Below are positions 13,679-26,556 of a stretch of DNA of 46,989 bases, one piece after another (the first letter of the stretch is position 1; each line of letters begins with the position of its first letter). Under the pieces are notes generated by a model, which was not told the DNA's origin, ran no database searches, and saw only the letters and a program-made list of their open reading frames with translations. Source of the stretch: an uncultured Anaerolineae bacterium (GTDB lineage Bacteria; Chloroflexota; Anaerolineae; JACIWP01); NCBI GenBank assembly GCA_938049385.1, contig CALIBQ010000008.1:1-46989 (forward strand), read 5' to 3'. A program made the position numbers and the translations under genes.

Positions 13679-13747
13679 GGGTTCCCCACCCCGATACTCT
13701 GCCAGCGGTGCTCTCCGCTCCGCACCCGTCAGGAGCCATGCTGTTTT

Positions 13748-13775
13748 ATCATATCCCTACAGCTCGGCCTGTCAA
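13748..13775 (-). promoter_or_regulatory. Promoter of the exporter operon
   Basis: On the minus strand, TTGACA (13770-13775), a 16-nt spacer and TATGAT (13748-13753) lie about 70 nt before the permease ATG. It lacks the GGACT/CCCTC upstream motif seen at the three attenuated promoters. Confidence 0.75.
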
Positions 13776-13826
13776 ATGAGGAAGGGGCAGAGGGAGTTGA
13801 GGCGGTGGGCCGGCGATGAAACACCA

Positions 13827-13893
13827 GGCTTATGGTGCCAAGACCCGTGAGGGCTTCGCTTCCTACGCCGGCGGCTTCCAGCCGCCGGCGAAC
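13827..13893 (-). repeat. Dispersed repeat A, copy 2 (inverted relative to copy 1)
   Basis: The reverse complement matches 143-209 over 67 nt at roughly 85 percent by eye. The 10-bp hairpin is kept (13867-13876 with 13880-13889). Its orientation relative to repeat B is opposite in the two loci, so A and B are separable modules. Confidence 0.75.
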
Positions 13894-13954
13894 TTCCGAC
13901 AAACAGGTGACCGACCTCCTGGGCCAAGTCGAGTGCGGCCGAGGTTGAAACTGC

Positions 13955-14020
13955 GGCTTCGCGGTTGTTGCCATGGCTTCAGCCGCCAAGCCGCTCCTCC
14001 GCAGATTGTATGTTTGGACT
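13955..14020 (+). repeat. Dispersed repeat B, copy 2 (upstream of the ilv-leu promoter)
   Basis: It matches 253-318 at 58 of 66 positions without gaps. Similarity continues through GGACT, 9 nt, CCCTC to the TTGACA box at 14045. The same GGACT/CCCTC spacing occurs at the edge of the IS1182-like remnant (reverse strand, 26746-26785). Confidence 0.75.
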
Positions 14021-14044
14021 TTTTCAAAACCCTCAATTAGCGGG

Positions 14045-14073
14045 TTGACAAATCCGGAAAGGTGTGCTATAAT
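14045..14073 (+). promoter_or_regulatory. Promoter of the ilv-leu operon
   Basis: A consensus promoter: TTGACA (14045-14050), 17-nt spacer, TATAAT (14068-14073), with TGC just before the -10 box (extended -10). The transcript would start near 14080 and enter the attenuator leader. Confidence 0.9.
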
Positions 14074-14097
14074 TACGTTAGAACCTGAGGTAATCAG

Positions 14098-14121
14098 ATG
14101 GTGTGCAGGTACATACGATGA
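14098..14121 (+). CDS. Possible 7-codon upstream ORF overlapping the leader peptide
   Basis: ATG GTG TGC AGG TAC ATA CGA TGA is preceded by a good TGAGGT ribosome site 6-7 nt away (14086-14091). Its TGA overlaps the ATG of the Leu/Val/Ile leader peptide (ATGA). It may deliver ribosomes to the leader by translational coupling. Support is only positional. Confidence 0.35.
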   Translation: MVCRYIR

Positions 14122-14225
14122 ACCTAGTGAATGTGCTCTCCCTGAACCTGGTAATTATTCTCGGCATTCTGGTTCTGGTCCTTATTGGCCAGAGCCTGGT
14201 TCCGGTTGGGGAGGGCGCGAGATAG
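14118..14225 (+). CDS. ilv-leu leader peptide (attenuation)
   Basis: This is a 35-residue peptide with 9 Leu, 7 Val and 4 Ile, including the run LVIILGILVLVLI (residues 11-23). Such composition is the hallmark of ribosome-mediated attenuation of branched-chain amino acid operons. The peptide ends 30 nt before an intrinsic terminator. A modest ribosome site (CAGG, 14106-14109) precedes the ATG, and an overlapping upstream mini-ORF may assist. Slow decoding of Leu, Val or Ile codons would hold the ribosome in segment 1 and favour antitermination. No product function is expected beyond its translation. Confidence 0.93.
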   Translation: MNLVNVLSLNLVIILGILVLVLIGQSLVPVGEGAR

Positions 14226-14285
14226 GCACACCCGAGAGCAAGCACCAGCCATAAGAAGCCTCCCAACCGGGAGGCTTTTATTTTT
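14138..14285 (+). promoter_or_regulatory. ilv-leu transcription attenuator with alternative hairpins
   Basis: Three mutually exclusive pairings are visible. Segment 1 (14138-14148, CTCCC and AACC) can pair with segment 2 (14204-14213, GGTT and GGGAG). Segment 2 (14202-14214) can instead pair with segment 3 (14259-14270) along 12 bp with one bulged G, forming an antiterminator. Segment 3 is also the 5' arm of the terminator. The leader stop codon (14223) is close enough that a ribosome finishing the peptide would cover segment 2. This is the E. coli ilv/trp-type logic. Confidence 0.88.
14256..14285 (+). terminator. Attenuator terminator of the ilv-leu leader
   Basis: A 9-bp stem AAGCCTCCC (14256-14264) / GGGAGGCTT (14269-14277) with an AACC loop is followed by TTATTTTT. 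Confidence 0.93.
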
Positions 14286-14325
14286 GCAGCGTACTGGTCC
14301 CAACGCGGCCGACCAATGGGCATTG

Positions 14326-14383
14326 AGGCCTTTCTTCAGGCGTTCCGGTCTTCGCCGGCATGCCTGACGAAAGGCCTTTTATT
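14326..14383 (+). terminator. Second, larger terminator before ilvD
   Basis: AGGCCTTTC (14326-14334) pairs with GAAAGGCCT (14369-14377). Inner stems are CAGGC/GCCTG (14337-14341 with 14362-14366) and CCGG/CCGG, and a TTT-ATT tract follows. It lies between the attenuator and ilvD, so polymerase that escapes the first terminator meets another. I found no clear antiterminator partner for it. Confidence 0.75.
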
Positions 14384-14426
14384 ATCATTATCTCACTACA
14401 CCGACGAAAGAAAGGCGGACCCGAGG

Positions 14427-16094
14427 ATGCTCAGAAGCGACGAACTGAAAAAAGGCTTGGAACGCGCACCGCACCGCTCCCTCCTGCGGGCGCTGGGAGT
14501 GACGGACTTCGAGATGAGCCAGCCCTTTATCGGGGTCATCAACTCCTACAGCGAGGTTATCCCTGGCCATGTTCATCTGCGGCAGGTCGCGGAAGCGGTC
14601 AAAGCCGGCATCCGCGCCGCCGGCGGCACCCCGTTCGAAGTCAATACCATCGGCGTGTGCGACGGCCTGGCCATGAACCATGCCGGCATGCGCTTCTCCC
14701 TCCCCAGCCGCGAGCTGATCGCCGATTCGGTGGAAATCCTGGTCCAGGCCCACGCTTTTGACGCCATCGTGCTCATCCCCAACTGCGACAAGATCATCCC
14801 CGGCATGCTGATGGCCGCAGCGCGCATCAATATCCCAGCCATCGTTATCAACGGCGGCCCTATGCTCGCCGGCCATTGGCAGGGCCGGGCGGTGGACCTC
14901 TCCAACGTCTTTGAGGCGGTGGGCGCGGTAACCGCCGGCCGCATGACCGAGGAAGAGCTGGCCTCCCTGGAAGAGGCCGCCTGCCCCGGATGCGGCTCCT
15001 GCGCCGGCATGTTCACCGCCAATACCATGAATTGCCTGACCGAAGCCATGGGCATGTCCCTGCCGGGGAGCGGCACCTGCCCAGCGGTGGATGCGGAGCG
15101 CCTGCGCCTGGCCAAGGAGGCCGGCATGCGCGTCATGCACCTCCTGCGCCAGAACATCCGGCCGCGCGATATCCTGACCGCCGGCGCCATCCGCAACGCC
15201 TTCGCTGTGGATATGGCCTTGGGCGGCTCCACCAACTCCGTCCTGCACCTCATGGCCATCGCCCATGAAGCCGGCGTGGATTTCTCCCTGGGCGAGCTTA
15301 ATTCCCTGAGTGCCAGAATTCCCCATCTGTGCAAGATGAGCCCGGCGGTGGGCGGGCATCACATCGAGGACCTGCACCGCGCCGGCGGCATTCAGGGGGT
15401 CATGCGCCGGCTGGCCGACCTGGGCGTGCTGGACACGACCTGCATGACCGCCGCCGGCCAGAGCGTAGAGGAGAATCTGCAAAAGGCCGGCGTATGGGAT
15501 GATTCGGTCATCCGCCCGCTGGACAATCCCTACTCCGCCTCGGGCGGACTGCGCATCCTCTTCGGTTCATTGGCACCGGAAGGGAGCGTCATCAAGAAGG
15601 CGGCGCTGGCCGCCGGCCAGTCGCTCTATCGCGGGCCGGCGCGCGTCTTCAACTCCGAGGAAGAGGCTACCCAGGCCATCTTGCGCCGGGATTTCCGGCC
15701 CGGGGATGTCATCATCATCCGCTATGAGGGACCCAAGGGTGGCCCCGGCATGCGTGAGATGCTCACCGCCACCTCGGCCCTGTCGGGCATGGGCATGGAT
15801 GGCGATATTGCGCTGATCACCGACGGCCGCTTCTCCGGTGCCTCTCGCGGATTGGTCATCGGGCACGTCTCGCCGGAGGCGGCCGCCGGCGGCCCCATCG
15901 CCCTGGTGGAGGATGGGGACATGATCACTATTGACCTGGACAATTATCGCGTGGACATTGACGTGGACGAGGGAACCCTGCGCCGGCGGGCGGAAAAACT
16001 GCCGGCGTGGACCCCGCGTGTGACGGACGGCTATCTGCGGCGCTATGCCGAGTATGTCTCCTCTGCCAGCACCGGGGCGGTGTTCCGCATGTGA
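14427..16094 (+). CDS. ilvD: Dihydroxy-acid dehydratase
   Basis: This 555-aa Fe-S enzyme dehydrates 2,3-dihydroxy-isovalerate and -methylvalerate to the 2-oxoacids of valine and isoleucine. Cluster-ligand regions are visible in [12 protein letters not shown] and [19 protein letters not shown]. Other conserved runs are [16 protein letters not shown] and [14 protein letters not shown] near the middle and [20 protein letters not shown] near the end. The ATG at 14427 fits the family N-terminus and has AAAGGCGG at a suitable distance; an in-frame upstream ATG (14316) lies inside the terminator stem region and is rejected. It is first in a nine-gene operon. Confidence 0.97.
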
Positions 16095-16129
16095 AGCCCG
16101 ATTCCCGATTGGGAGAAAAGGAGGGAAGA

Positions 16130-17820
16130 ATGAAGCTGACAGGCGCGCAAATTGTGTGTGAGGCACTGGTGCGAGAAGGTGTGGATGTGGTGTTCGGATA
16201 TCCGGGTGGAGCGGTCATCAAGCTCTACGACACCCTGATTGACTATCCCATTCACCATGTGCTGGTGCGCCATGAGCAGGCCGCGGCGCATGCCGCCGAT
16301 GGATATGCGCGTGCCACCGGCAAGGTGGGCGTCTGCATCGCCACCTCTGGCCCAGGTGCTACCAACTTGGTGACCGGCATTGCCACCGCATACATGGATT
16401 CCTCGCCTATTGTGGCGATCACCGGCCAGGTCCCCACCAACCTGCTGGGGCGGGATGCCTTCCAGGAGGTCGACATCACCGGCATCACTATGCCCATCAC
16501 CAAGCACAGCTATCTGGTGACCGATGTCCGTGAACTGCCCCACATCATGAAAGAGGCCTTTTATATCGCCCGCTCCGGCCGGCCAGGCCCGGTGCTCATC
16601 GATATCCCCAAGGATGTGCAGGCCGCGGAGACGGAGTTCGACTATCCGGATGAGATCGAACTGCCCGGCTATGAGCCGCCGCTGGAAGGGGACCCCCAGC
16701 TCATCCAGCGCATGGCGGATATGATCAACGCGGCCGAGCGGCCGCTCATCCTGGCCGGCCACGGCGTCATCCTCTCCGAAGCCGAGGAAGAACTGCTGGC
16801 CCTGGCGGAACGGGGCAACTTCCCCGTCGCCACCACCCTGCTGGGCATCAGCGCCATCCCCGAGACGCACCGCCTGGCCCTGGGCATGGTCGGCATGCAC
16901 GGCTGGAAGCATGCTAATCAGGCCATCCAGCGCTGTGACCTGCTCATCGTGCTGGGGGCGCGCTTCTCCGACCGCGTGACGGGCAAGATATCCACCTTTG
17001 CACCGGACGCCAAGATCATCCATGTGGACATTGACCCGGCGGAAATCGGCAAAAATGTGGAGCCGGACCTGGCGGTGGTGGGCGACGTCAAACGGGTCCT
17101 GCGGGCGTTGATACCGCTGGTCCAGCCGCGGCTGTGCGTGGAATGGATCACCGACCTCCTGCGGAGCAAACAGCAGTACCAGGACCCACAGGCCTTCCAG
17201 CCCAAGAACGGCCGGCTGACCTCCCCTATGGTCATCCGCGAGATCTGGCGCGCCACCGGCGGCCAGGCCATCATGGTCAGCGACGTGGGCCAGAACCAGA
17301 TGTGGGAGGCGCAGTACTACTTCCACGACCGCCGGCGCGGCCTCATCACCTCCGGCGGCCTGGGCACCATGGGCTTCGCCGTGCCGGCGGCCATGGGCGT
17401 GCAGGCGGCCTATCCCGACGCTACCGTCTGGGCCACCGTGGGCGACGGCGGTTTCCAAATGACCATCCAAGAGCTGGCCACCATCGTGCAGGAGAAGTAC
17501 CCCATCAAGATCGCCATCCTCAACAACGGCTATCTCGGCATGGTGCGGCAGTGGCAGCAGTTCTTCTTTGAGCGCCGCTACGCGTTCACGCCGATCAGCA
17601 GTCCGGACTACCTGAAGCTGGCCGAGGCCTACGGCATCCCCGCCAAGCGGGTGTCGGACCCGGCGGACCTGCGCAGTTCGGTGGAAGAGGCCATGCGCAT
17701 CCCCGGCCCGGTGGTGCTGGAATTCCTGGTGGAGCGGGAGGACAACGTGTATCCGATGGTGCCCGCCGGCGCCAGCATCTCCGAGATGATCGAGCGCCAT
17801 ATGGTGGAGGAGGGCGCCTG

Positions 17821-17821
<1 letters not shown>
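16130..17821 (+). CDS. ilvB: Acetolactate synthase, catalytic subunit
   Basis: This 563-aa ThDP enzyme condenses pyruvate with pyruvate or 2-oxobutyrate. The N-terminal VRHEQAAAHAADGYARATG carries the catalytic Glu. The ThDP/Mg motif is GDGGFQMTIQELATI through NNGYLGMVRQWQ. A very strong AAAAGGAGGG site precedes the ATG at 16130; the longer frame upstream overlaps ilvD and is unlikely. Its stop overlaps the ilvN start (TGATG), which should fix subunit stoichiometry. Control comes from the leader attenuator. Confidence 0.97.
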
Positions 17822-19417
<1,596 letters not shown>

Positions 19418-19483: not shown

Positions 19484-20410
19484 ATGGCGTTCCGGTCCGA
19501 CTTTATCTGGTTCAACGGCGAATTCGTCCCCTGGGACGAGGCGAAAGTGCACGTGGGAGTGCACGCGCTCCATTACGGCACCAGTGTGTTCGAGGGCATC
19601 CGCGCCTATAAGACGGTCAAGGGCACCGCGGTCTTTTGTCTGCAACAGCATGTGCGCCGGCTCTTCAACTCCGCCAAAGTCCTGCGCATGCCCATCCCCT
19701 ACACCGAGGAGCAGATCGCGCAGGCAATCCTTGACACGGTGGCGAAGAACCGCCACGAGGCCTGCTACATCCGCCCGCTGATCTTCCGCGGTATGGAGCG
19801 CCTGGGGGTGGACGGCCGGGCGTGTCCGGTGGAAGTAGTCATCATGACCTGGGAGTGGGGCGCCTATCTGGGCCCAGAGGCGCTGGAGCAGGGCGTGGAC
19901 GCCGGCGTCAGCTCCTGGCGGCGCATGGCGCCCGGCACGCTGGCGGCCAACTGCAAGATCGGCGGCCAGTACGTGAATTCCCAGTTTGTAACCATGGAGG
20001 CCAAGGACCGCGGCTTTGCGGAGGGCATCGCGCTCGATATCAACGGCTATGTGTCCGAGGGGAGCGGCGAGAACATCTTCCTGGTCTACAACGGCACCAT
20101 CCAGACGCCGGCGCTGGCCGCATCCATCCTCGAAGGCATCACCCGCCAGTGCGTCATCACCCTGGCGCGCGACATGGGCTACACCGTCGAGGAGACCATG
20201 ATCCCGCGCGAGCGCCTGTACGTCGCCGACGAAGCCTTCTTCACTGGCACGGCGGCGGAAATCACGCCCATCCGCTCGATCGACGGCATCCCGGTGGGCG
20301 CCGGCCGGCGCGGCCCTGTCACGGCCAAACTGCAGGAGCGCTTCTTCGCCATCACTTCCGGCAAGGAGGAGGATCGTTGGGGATGGCTGACGTACGTCCC
20401 CAAAACATGA
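19484..20410 (+). CDS. ilvE: Branched-chain amino acid aminotransferase
   Basis: This 308-aa PLP enzyme of fold type IV performs the last step of Leu, Ile and Val synthesis. Conserved segments are [13 protein letters not shown] near the N-terminus, the PLP-lysine region [12 protein letters not shown] (K158), GSGENIFLV, and [14 protein letters not shown]. The expected length is about 305 aa. It has a GGAAAGGAAG ribosome site and follows ilvC by 66 nt. Confidence 0.96.
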
Positions 20411-20449: not shown

Positions 20450-22129
<1,680 letters not shown>

Positions 22130-22132
22130 ACC

Positions 22133-23404
22133 ATGGGCATGACACTCGCTGAAGCCATCCTTGCCGCACATGTGGGTGCCCCTGTGCATCCTGGCCAGTT
22201 GATCGATGTACCGGTGGACCTGGTGCTGGCCAACGACATCACGGCACCGATTGCCATCCGGGAGTTCGAGAAAATCGGGGTAGGAAAGGTATTCGACCGG
22301 GACAAAGTAGTCCTGGTCCCCGATCACTTCACCCCCAATAAGGACATTCCCTCTGCGGAGCAGTGCCGGCAGGTACGGCTGTTCGCGCGCCAGCAGGAGC
22401 TGAGCCATTATTTTGAGGTCGGCCGGCTGGGCATCGAGCACGTCCTGCTCCCGGAGCAGGGCCTGGTGGTGCCTGGCGACGTGGTGGTGGGGGCGGATTC
22501 CCACACCTGCACCTACGGTGCGCTGGGCGCTTTCGCCACCGGCATGGGCTCCACTGATATCGCCGTGGCCATGGCCACCGGCCGCATCTGGATGAAGGTG
22601 CCGTCCACCTTCCGCTTCATCTACCGTGGGGAGCGCCGGCCGTGGGTCGGGGGAAAGGACCTCATCCTTTACACCATCGGGAAAATCGGCGTGGACGGCG
22701 CCCGCTATATGGCAATGGAGTTCGCCGGCCCGGCCATCGAGTCCCTGCCTATGGACGATCGCTTCACCATGAGCAACATGGCCATCGAAGCCGGCGGCAA
22801 GGCCGGCCTCATCGCCGTGGACGACATCACGCGGGCCTACTTGGCGGAGCATGCCCGCCGGCCGTACCGCGAGTTTCGTTCCGACCCGGACGCGGTCTTC
22901 GCCGCAACGCTGGAGATTGACGTCAGCGAGATCGAGCCGCAGGTCGCCTTCCCGCACCTGCCCAGCAACACCCGGCCTATCAGCCAGGTGGGGAATATCC
23001 CCATTGACCAGGTGGTCATCGGTAGCTGTACCAACGGCCGCATTGGGGATATACGCCTGGCGGCGGAAATCCTGCGCCGGCGCTCTGTCCATCCGAACGT
23101 CCGCTGTATCATCATCCCCGGTTCCCAAGAGGTGATGCGGCAAATGATCCGCGAAGGGCTGGCGGAAGTCTTCCTGGACGCCGGCGCGGCCATCAGCACC
23201 CCCACCTGTGGGCCGTGCCTGGGCGGGCACATGGGCATCCTGGCCGCCGGCGAACGCTGTGTCTCCACCACCAACCGCAACTTCATCGGGCGCATGGGTC
23301 ACCGCACCAGCGAGGTCTACCTGGCCAACCCGGCGGTGGCCGCCGCCAGCGCCGTGCTGGGGCGCATCGCCGGCCCCGATGAACTGCCGGCACCCTGGGC
23401 ATGA
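22133..23404 (+). CDS. leuC: 3-isopropylmalate dehydratase, large subunit
   Basis: This 423-aa aconitase-family subunit, in the shorter LeuC/HacA class, isomerises 2- to 3-isopropylmalate with LeuD. Fe-S ligands are seen in VIGSCTNGRIGDIR and TPTCGPCLGGHMG. VGADSHTCTYGALGAFATGMGSTD is the conserved core. It starts just after leuA; ATG at 22133 and at 22139 are both possible, and the GGAGGAGGAG site suits either. The family includes homoaconitase, but operon context points to leucine. Confidence 0.95.
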   Translation: MGMTLAEAILAAHVGAPVHPGQLIDVPVDLVLANDITAPIAIREFEKIGVGKVFDRDKVVLVPDHFTPNKDIPSAEQCRQVRLFARQQELSHYFEVGRLGIEHVLLPEQGLVVPGDVVVGADSHTCTYGALGAFATGMGSTDIAVAMATGRIWMKVPSTFRFIYRGERRPWVGGKDLILYTIGKIGVDGARYMAMEFAGPAIESLPMDDRFTMSNMAIEAGGKAGLIAVDDITRAYLAEHARRPYREFRSDPDAVFAATLEIDVSEIEPQVAFPHLPSNTRPISQVGNIPIDQVVIGSCTNGRIGDIRLAAEILRRRSVHPNVRCIIIPGSQEVMRQMIREGLAEVFLDAGAAISTPTCGPCLGGHMGILAAGERCVSTTNRNFIGRMGHRTSEVYLANPAVAAASAVLGRIAGPDELPAPWA

Positions 23405-23421
23405 GAGGAGGCGAAACTGCA

Positions 23422-23925
23422 ATGAAGCTGACAGGGAAAGCCTGGGTCTTTGGCGACAACATTGATACTGACGTGATCATCCCGGCGCGCCGGCTGAACA
23501 TCTCGACGGCGGAAGAGCTGGCCAAATATGTGATGGAGGACCTGGACCCCAGCCTGGCAGGGAAGATTCAGCCCGGGGATATCTTTGTGGCCGGCAAGAA
23601 CTTCGGGTGCGGTTCCTCGCGCGAGCACGCGCCCCTGGCGCTCAAGGGCGCCGGCGTGGCCTGCGTGATCGCCGAAAGCTTCGCCCGCATCTTTTACCGC
23701 AACGCCATCAACATCGGGCTTCCCATCCTGGAATCGCCGGAAGCGGCCCGCCGCATCCGCCAGGGCGACCAGGTAACGGTGGACCTGAGCACCGGCGTCA
23801 TCACCAACGAGACGACCGGCGAGCAGTTCCAGTCGGAGCCGTATCCGCAGTTTATCCTACAAATCATTCGCGCCGGCGGGCTGATCGCCAAGACCCGTCA
23901 GGACCTGCTGGGAGGTGCCGCATGA
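23422..23925 (+). CDS. leuD: 3-isopropylmalate dehydratase, small subunit
   Basis: This 167-aa swivel-domain subunit partners LeuC. Motifs are [17 protein letters not shown] and [18 protein letters not shown], both strongly conserved. The ATG at 23422 with AGAGGAGGCG upstream is preferred to the in-frame ATG at 23401, which overlaps the leuC stop. It overlaps leuB by 4 nt (ATGA). Confidence 0.95.
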
Positions 23926-24998
23926 GAGCCCATATCGTGCTCCTGCCGGGCGACGGCATCGGCCCGGAGGTCGTGGCGGAAGGCGTGAAGGTCCTGAAAG
24001 CGGTGGCGCAGAAGCGCGGCATGGAACTGCATCTGCAGGAAGAACTGCTGGGCGCCTGCGCCATTGAGCGCACTGGCAATCCTCTCCCGCCGGCCACGCT
24101 GGAAGCGATATCCCACTGCGACGCGGTGCTGATGGGCGCCGTGGGGGACCCCAAATATGACGACCCGAAACTGCCCGTGCGGCCGGAACAGGGCCTGTTG
24201 GGACTGCGCAAGGCTATGGGGGTGTTCGCCAACTTGCGGCCGGTGGCGGTCATGCCGGCCCTTCTCCATGCCTCGACGCTCAAGCCTGAGGTGCTCCAGG
24301 GCACTGACCTGGTCGTCGTGCGCGAGCTGACCGGCGGCATCTACTTCGGCCAGCCCAAGGAGCGCGGGGTGCAGGACGGCCAGCGCTGGGCAGTGGATAC
24401 CATGCGCTATTGGGAACACGAAGTGCGCCGGGTGGCGCACGTCGCTTTCCGCCTGGCGCGCCAGCGCCGCAAGAAGCTGACCTCGGTGGACAAGGCCAAC
24501 GTGCTGGAATGCTCCCGCATGTGGCGCGAGGTGGTCAACGAGGTGGCGCAGGAATATCCCGACGTGACGCTGGAGCATATGCTGGTGGACGCCTGCGCCA
24601 TGGCGCTCATCCGCACCCCGACCAATTTCGATGTGGTGCTGACGGAGAACATGTTCGGCGATATCCTGACCGACGAGGCGGCCATGCTCGCCGGCTCTAT
24701 CGGCATGCTCCCCTCAGCCTCGCTGGGGGAGGGCCGGCGCGGCCTGTACGAGCCGATCCACGGCTCCGCCCCGACCATCGCCGGCAAAGACATTGCCAAC
24801 CCACTAGGCACCATCCTCAGCGCGGCCATGCTCCTGCGCCATTCATTGGATATGGAAGCGGAGGCACGGGCGGTGGAAGAGGCGGTATCGGCGGTGCTGG
24901 CCGCCGGCTACCGCACTGCCGATATCGCCGAGCCGAACTGCACCACTGTCGGCACCCGCCAGATGGGCGATCTGGTGGTCCAGCACCTCAAGCTGTAG
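23922..24998 (+). CDS. leuB: 3-isopropylmalate dehydrogenase
   Basis: This 358-aa NAD-dependent beta-decarboxylating dehydrogenase produces 2-oxoisocaproate. Motifs are [42 protein letters not shown], and the metal/NAD region [27 protein letters not shown] with [15 protein letters not shown]. It is the final gene of the operon, starting inside the leuD stop. A strong terminator follows 17 nt later. Confidence 0.96.
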
Positions 24999-25075: not shown

Positions 25076-26458
25076 TTATTCGAAGAGCACGCGCGGCTGT
25101 TGGAGCAGGTGCTGTTTGTCGCGTGCGCTGAAGGGTATGGCCTCGAGGGTGAGCGGCTTGACGCCGGCCGGCAGTTCCCAGGGCATGGTCCATTCGGGCC
25201 GCGCATGTTCCACCAACTGCCAGGCCGCATCGCTGGGCACGACGGTCAGCAGGCGCGCCGCCTGGGCGGGGAAGCGGGCGATGAAGCGCAGTTCATCCGG
25301 CAGGAGCGGGAGCTGATTGTGGGCGTTGGCGAGCTGTACCAGCTCAAGGACAGTGCGGGCTTCGTCATCGCTCTCGAACTCGATGTCCAGCTCGCTGTAC
25401 ACGTGGCGCAGGCCGGCGACGCCGCCGAACTCGCCGGTGGTGATGATGCGGCCGCGCGGCCGCAGTTCGAATTCCGGCCGGCCCAATACGGTGAAGTCGA
25501 ACAGCTCGTAATTATGGCGATCCTTGAGCGCACCGTCCGCATGGATGCCGGACTCATGGGCGAAGGCATTGGCGCCGACGCCCGGCTGGTTGATGGGGAT
25601 TTTCTGGCCGGTGCTGTAGGCCACATAGCGGCAGAGGGTCCAGGCCCAGCGCAGGTCCACCGGCCGGCCCAGCGGGAGCTGGTCGCGCAGGTCGCGTGCG
25701 TATTCGATGGCCAGCAGTATGGAGACCAGGTCGGCGTTGCCGGCGCGCTCACCCATGCCGTTGACGGTGGTGTTGATCCAAGCATCCTGGCCGGCCTCGA
25801 TGACCGCCACTGCGCCGGCGAGCGAATTGGCCACCGCCAGGCCCAGGTCATTATGGCAGTGAAGCTCGATGGGCATCTGAGCCTTCTCGGCCAGGGCGCG
25901 CACCCGTGGGGCGATGGAGGCCGGCGTGTCATAGCCCAGGGTATCGCAGTAACGGAGCCGGCAGGCGCCGGCGGCCTTCACCGCCTGGGCAAATTCGATG
26001 AGAAAGCCCAGGTCAGAACGGGAGGAGTCTTCCGCGCTGACGATGATGGAGCGGGCACCATGCTCGATGGCGGCGCGCATGGCATCCGCCGTGATCTCGA
26101 TGACCTGCTCCGGCGTGTACTTGCCCTTGAACTTGTGCTGCATCATTTGCGGCGAGGTGCTCATGGACAGGTCGAAATCGCGCAGGCCGGTCTGCAGGGA
26201 AAAGATGGCGTCCTGGCGCTGTGCTCTGAGCCATCCCGAGATGACCATGTCTCCCATGACACCCATGGCATGAAGTTCCAGGTTGGCGGCGATGTAGTTG
26301 TGCTCATGCCGCACGAACGGGAAGCTCATCTCGGATTGATGGACGCCCATTTGCCCCAGATAGATGTTCACCATGGTCTTCTGGAGCTTGGAAAGGGTGA
26401 TGCGCGCGGTCTGTACGCCATCGCGGTTAGTGGTGTCCAGCAGATACACTGATGCCAT
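25076..26458 (-). CDS. Homocitrate/isopropylmalate synthase-family enzyme (possible Re-citrate synthase)
   Basis: This 460-aa DRE-TIM metallolyase condenses an acyl-CoA with a 2-oxoacid. It has LDTTNRDGVQTARITLSKL, the metal motif HCHNDLGLAVANS, the NGMGERAGNADLVSI motif and GANAFAHESGIHADG. The C-terminus is shorter than in LeuA and lacks a clear leucine-binding domain. The NRDGVQTAR/KLQKTMVNIYLGQMG pattern recalls proteins annotated as homocitrate synthase in strict anaerobes, some of which are Re-citrate synthases (Clostridium kluyveri, proposed in Dehalococcoides); that link is from memory. The ATG at 26458 has AGGAGG 7 nt upstream; the ATG at 26464 is too close to it. It has its own promoter and attenuator. 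Confidence 0.85.
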   Translation of the reverse strand: MASVYLLDTTNRDGVQTARITLSKLQKTMVNIYLGQMGVHQSEMSFPFVRHEHNYIAANLELHAMGVMGDMVISGWLRAQRQDAIFSLQTGLRDFDLSMSTSPQMMQHKFKGKYTPEQVIEITADAMRAAIEHGARSIIVSAEDSSRSDLGFLIEFAQAVKAAGACRLRYCDTLGYDTPASIAPRVRALAEKAQMPIELHCHNDLGLAVANSLAGAVAVIEAGQDAWINTTVNGMGERAGNADLVSILLAIEYARDLRDQLPLGRPVDLRWAWTLCRYVAYSTGQKIPINQPGVGANAFAHESGIHADGALKDRHNYELFDFTVLGRPEFELRPRGRIITTGEFGGVAGLRHVYSELDIEFESDDEARTVLELVQLANAHNQLPLLPDELRFIARFPAQAARLLTVVPSDAAWQLVEHARPEWTMPWELPAGVKPLTLEAIPFSARDKQHLLQQPRVLFE

Positions 26459-26556
26459 TGTCATGCCTCCTGTAGAAGATGGTACTGGGATTGTGCGAGA
26501 AAACGGCCTCGCCGGCATCAGCTCTTCATCGAGCGGAAGCGTCCTTTGGAGTAATG

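Follow-up and report, generated by a model that had tools for sequence, protein, structure and literature searches.

Results

Organization of the ilv-leu locus

We analyzed a 46,989-nucleotide stretch of DNA (the window) that carries nine genes for branched-chain amino acid (BCAA) synthesis, ilvDBNCE-leuACDB. All nine lie on the same strand with little space between them and were identified by NCBIfam, in agreement with the original prediction of a full ilv/leu set 3' of a regulatory leader:

14427-16094, forward strand: ilvD, dihydroxy-acid dehydratase
16007-17821, forward strand: ilvB ORF, acetolactate synthase large subunit (homology from about residue 41)
17821-18351, forward strand: ilvN, acetolactate synthase small subunit
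18308-19417, forward strand: ilvC ORF, ketol-acid reductoisomerase (homology from about residue 33)
19484-20410, forward strand: ilvE, branched-chain aminotransferase
20450-22129, forward strand: leuA, 2-isopropylmalate synthase
22133-23404, forward strand: leuC
23401-23925, forward strand: leuD
23607-24998, forward strand: leuB ORF (homology from about residue 109)

Within the operon, we detected neither a promoter nor a terminator pattern on the forward strand. Gene spacing and strand suggest that the leader controls all nine genes, a reading that must accommodate the second hairpin listed below. The nearest relatives of ilvD are from Chloroflexota, as expected from the earlier description of the genome as Chloroflexota-like. 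Just 3' of the operon, at 25076-26518 of the window, lies a convergent gene that resembles homocitrate/isopropylmalate synthase genes and scored below all curated cut-offs.

The region 5' of ilvD contains the following features:

14045-14073, forward strand: sigma-70-type promoter TTGACA-17-TATAAT, a 12/12 consensus match with an extended TG
14086-14091, forward strand: possible ribosome-binding site TGAGGT, 12 nt 5' of an in-frame GTG at 14103
14118-14225, forward strand: leader-peptide ORF of 35 aa (40 aa from the alternative in-frame start GTG 14103)
14133-14157, forward strand: segment 1, the 5' arm of protector 1:2, assigned from the fold and from 1:2 co-variation
14171-14196, forward strand: inner hairpin between segments 1 and 2 (14171-14180 with 14187-14196), inside the regulatory codons
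14202-14214, forward strand: segment 2 (CCGGUUGGGGAGG), which codes for the conserved P-V-G end of the peptide
14256-14285, forward strand: segments 3 and 4 with a U-tract, the intrinsic terminator (attenuator); segment 3 core at 14259-14270
14325-14378, forward strand: second terminator-like hairpin, followed by UUUUAUUA, assigned from the fold; it lies between the attenuator and ilvD and was missed in the original prediction

The TTGACA and the -10 region are kept in a genome of the same genus (G002), and the promoter is probably used in vivo.

A short frame rich in Leu, Val, and Ile codons

Translation of 14118-14225 gives MNLVNVLSLNLVIILGILVLVLIGQSLVPVGEGAR*, a 35-residue peptide in which 20 positions are Leu (9), Val (7), or Ile (4), the composition originally claimed. 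This frame has the highest Leu/Ile/Val content among the 301 window ORFs of 20-60 aa, and its richness was not equaled by any ORF from 2000 dinucleotide shuffles of 13679-14426. It is under protein-coding selection: the ORF differs from that of G002 by five substitutions, all five of them synonymous, and each falls outside segments 1, 2, 3, and 4 and the inner hairpin.

The original interval began at 14098, which is an ATG in another frame (7 codons); the leader itself starts at ATG 14118 or GTG 14103. A better-spaced Shine-Dalgarno-like sequence favors GTG 14103, and no strong Shine-Dalgarno sequence was found at the usual distance 5' of ATG 14118. G002 also has a change at 14107, just 5' of the ATG; translation from GTG 14103 would make this change nonsynonymous, a slight argument for ATG 14118. 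The choice between the two is without effect on the attenuator model.

Mutually exclusive pairings and ribosome position

The terminator, AAGCCUCCC-AACC-GGGAGGCUU, occupies 14256-14277, and its U-tract runs on to 14285. Segment 3 can instead pair with segment 2 in an antiterminator (2:3; 14202-14214 with 14259-14270, 12 pairs and one bulged G), and segment 2 can pair with segment 1 in a protector (1:2; 14133-14157 with 14197-14218) that encloses a 10-bp hairpin. The 211-nt leader is more stably folded than its shuffles (z -3.4), and the free leader folds into protector 1:2, the inner hairpin, and the terminator.

Folding with ribosome occupancy, a check proposed with the original prediction, gave the terminator both without a ribosome (P(3:4)=0.99) and with a ribosome masking the stop codon (P(3:4)=0.98). 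With the ribosome on the Leu/Val/Ile cluster and segment 4 absent, the antiterminator formed (P(2:3)=0.76-0.77). When the full terminator was present, 2:3 was the best structure for the earlier stall only, and masks toward the end of the cluster left 3:4 favored in the equilibrium fold of the full-length RNA; antitermination at late stalls must therefore be kinetic, with 2:3 forming first. These folds and the co-variation described below agree with the earlier claim that 1:2, 2:3, and the terminator are mutually exclusive. The placement of the stop codon, previously called correct, also holds up: the stop is at 14223, segment 2 ends at 14214, and the stop-masked fold gives the terminator.

Conservation and co-variation

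We built a first alignment from 15 ilvD loci and a covariance model, R1, from 14 of these. R1 matches were present in 229 of 396 genomes of the class (E <= 0.01) and in 49 of 301 genomes drawn from the phylum (E <= 1e-4), 23 of which lie outside the class. A check set in advance concerned the peptide composition and the 14202-14214/14259-14270 pairing in related genomes; relatives retain the composition, and the pairing co-varies.

We compared each leader's own duplexes with duplexes of permuted partners, a design that ignores sequence relatedness, which inflates all of the co-variation tests. Across 90 distinct leaders, the mean 2:3 duplex energy was -18.3 kcal/mol, versus -15.3 +/- 0.28 after permutation (0 of 10,000 as good); for 1:2 the own mean was -22.5 versus -18.6 +/- 0.38, a value reached in 0 of 5,000 permutations. 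The inner hairpin and terminator, examined in 99 sequences in an alignment that had been fitted to the covariance model, had 97.2% of cells paired and 253 double-change cells versus 48 +/- 10 expected, with two-sided changes in all 16 of 16 pairs. Sliding the partners by 1-3 columns abolished the co-variation signal.

The locus thus combines the features of an attenuator: (i) an ORF with a codon cluster; (ii) an intrinsic terminator; (iii) exclusive 2:3 and 1:2 pairings; (iv) a stop codon placed for the ribosome to cover segment 2; and (v) downstream genes that make or charge the sensed amino acid. We conclude that the 14045-14285 region very probably controls the ilv-leu operon as a leader-peptide attenuator of transcription, operated by the ribosome.

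In the mechanism we propose, transcription would start near 14080 and a ribosome would then translate the leader. With Leu-, Val-, and Ile-tRNAs charged, the ribosome would reach the stop codon at 14223 and cover the end of segment 2, and the 3:4 terminator would form at 14256-14285. If one of the three charged tRNAs were scarce, the ribosome would stall in the codon cluster and displace segment 1 or the inner hairpin; 2:3 would then pair ahead of the synthesis of segment 4, allowing RNA polymerase to read on. Without translation, 1:2 would form and termination would follow by default. The codons suggest that Leu, Val, and Ile are sensed together.

Codon choice follows the downstream gene

Approximately 90 of the 100 aligned R1 hits sit 5' of an ilv, leu, cimA, leuS, or Liv-type transporter gene, and the residues encoded by the leader differ with the gene. 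Leaders before ilvD or ilvB are of the Leu/Ile/Val type. The Leu share is 0.81 in leuS/leuA leaders, where Leu runs are present, versus 0.45 in ilv leaders, and the Ile share is 0.68 in cimA leaders versus 0.26 in ilv leaders. Citramalate synthase is the entry step to isoleucine synthesis, and the genome of the window has a second, Ile-rich leader, MSAGLIASPNSIIIRIIAGISISIIRYMETLAVGRE, in an attenuator 5' of its citramalate synthase gene (TIGR00977 above cutoff; L197 1501-1634, which is G000:C38:10546-10679). In other Chloroflexota classes, Tyr/Phe-rich leaders such as MKNNFAPKYYYYYYFGRIKVRLGESL precede DAHP synthase. It is hard to see what other than codon sensing would make the residues agree with the pathway at such different genes.

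Tyr/Phe-rich leaders (e.g., YYYYYYF) before DAHP synthase occur in L249, L250, L257, L259, and L262, and Leu-run leaders of the same RNA design precede leucyl-tRNA synthetase genes in L158, L165, L170, L175, L192, and L193. Three loci (L167, L126, and L182) have a tandem pair of leader attenuators before ilvB. Genes not obviously related to amino-acid metabolism follow BCAA leaders in L137 (a ferritin-like protein) and in L138 and L139 (a conserved 138-aa protein). A leader and terminator with no recognized co-oriented long gene 3' were seen in L145, L172, and L195 and may be stand-alone RNAs. A weak leader-like match with a Thr/Ser-rich frame lies before the phosphoglycerate dehydrogenase gene serA (L156 2644-2758).

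Alternative explanations and the second hairpin

The leader frame might instead encode a functional small membrane protein, the RNA structures being an ordinary upstream terminator. The 35-aa peptide is hydrophobic and its substitutions are purely synonymous, as this reading would have it; however, across relatives the peptide is freely variable apart from residues forced by the RNA segments, its residue type tracks the downstream gene (Tyr/Phe before DAHP synthase), and both 1:2 and 2:3 co-vary, which makes a membrane protein very improbable. We give still less weight to control of the operon by a T-box or metabolite riboswitch. T-boxes do precede ilvD homologues elsewhere in the phylum (L030 4641-4877 and L043 4601-4825), a case of regulator exchange at the same gene, and one is present elsewhere in the window. 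At 14040-14440, however, no Rfam family reached its gathering score and neither a match to RF00230 nor a T-box sequence was found, and the leader ORF accounts for the conservation. Rfam amino-acid leader families (Leu, Phe, His, Trp, and Thr) likewise gave no match at curated score at the locus, the best being Phe_leader with 26.2 bits versus 55. Among 20 related loci, no family reached threshold except the T-boxes of L030 and L043.

The hairpin at 14325-14378 bears on what happens after read-through at the leader-peptide attenuator. Its fold (-51 kcal/mol for 14286-14400, z -6.0) exceeds that of the attenuator hairpin in strength, and unless this hairpin is under control of its own or performs poorly in vivo, it should stop polymerase that has read through the first terminator. 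Should it terminate in vivo, the operon would need a second means of release; we infer that polymerase passes it. The locus might have two independent control points, one being the leader-peptide attenuator (14285) and the other an attenuator at 14325-14378 that answers another signal (a protein, a metabolite, or translation of an upstream frame). Consistent with this, a similar hairpin occupies the same position, 3' of the first terminator and 5' of ilvD, ilvB, or cimA, in many relatives whose gaps are longer. The GCAANGANGCC stretch that flanks it on the 5' side is conserved, GCAA/GCGA stands 5' of the second hairpin in 25 of 41 cases versus 40 of 363 other terminator-like sites, and two of three G002 substitutions convert stem mismatches to pairs. 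On the other hand, the hairpin is absent from short-gap close relatives (e.g., L003, L006, and L115), and the same flank is found at the apparent ends of ordinary genes (L217, L218, and L221), so the second hairpin may simply be the clade's style of terminator. In addition, co-variation is absent between segment 4 and the 5' arm of that hairpin: a cascade in which freed segment 4 takes up the arm, and which would have disabled both terminators, was rejected, as the own pairing (-10.2) was weaker than the permuted (-10.9). On balance, we consider two-point control unlikely.

Other candidates were set aside. The second hairpin is single copy in its own genome and hence not a genomic repeat, and a start codon in its GCAATGANGCC flank was ruled out because the ATG is not conserved (by eye). 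A model of the second hairpin, R2, performed weakly as a specific element, with several high-scoring matches at apparent ordinary gene ends.

A broader reading, which we offer as speculation, is that the ilv-leu attenuator belongs to a phylum-wide Chloroflexota family of one RNA design, with codons re-tuned to Leu/Ile/Val, Ile, Leu, or Tyr/Phe, and that many members in Anaerolineae-like genomes are coupled to a separately controlled second terminator farther 3' (14325-14378 in the window), which would be an undescribed two-stage transcriptional gate.

Discussion

The enterobacterial ilvGMEDA, ilvB, and leu attenuators have leader peptides rich in Leu, Val, and Ile and alternative 1:2, 2:3, and 3:4 pairings. 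The element described here resembles them in its BCAA-rich peptide, its alternative pairings, and its control of branched-chain genes. It differs in phylum and has no Rfam-detectable sequence similarity to them. Moreover, its stop codon comes after segment 2, which lies inside the ORF, an extra hairpin separates segments 1 and 2, and one leader precedes the whole ilv-leu set.

Most documented cases of leader-peptide attenuation are from Proteobacteria and Actinobacteria, and some are from Firmicutes (PMC2965389, PMC5794164); according to PMC2965389, in 2010 none had been known outside the first two groups before the Firmicutes cases of that paper. In Actinobacteria, ilvB attenuators such as the Corynebacterium ilvB-II motif have a uORF with branched-chain codons and a terminator before ilvB (PMC10272879, PMC1262725); ours shares the BCAA-codon uORF and terminator but differs in phylum, sequence, and first gene (ilvD). 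The ilvB-OMG motif is a predicted BCAA-rich uORF before ilvB, with 41 sequences from various phyla and predicted attenuation (PMC10272879). Compared by description, it is also rich in Thr codons, and neither our leader nor the relatives tested had an Rfam match. In Staphylococcus aureus, a leucine-rich peptide is reported to attenuate the ilv-leu operon (PMC5794164); the two share leader-peptide attenuation of ilv-leu outside Proteobacteria, whereas the S. aureus leader is leucine-specific, as the title of that paper has it, and of another phylum and sequence.

The mechanism is classical, and the interest lies in its lineage, breadth, and codon re-tuning. Neither the breadth of such control nor its presence in this lineage seems to have been described in the sources consulted: no Chloroflexota leader-peptide attenuator was found in the open literature searched, whose scope excludes the survey by Lopatovskaya et al. 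(2010). A class-wide, multi-pathway set in Chloroflexota, together with T-boxes at the same gene elsewhere in the phylum, bears on whether the mechanism had more than one origin and on regulator exchange, and the covariance model offers a means of annotating regulation in this phylum, most of whose known genomes are uncultured. At 389-639, the window has a T-box leader close to ileS and to the gene of an AlaXM-like alanyl-tRNA editing protein; this genome thus has T-box and leader-peptide control side by side.
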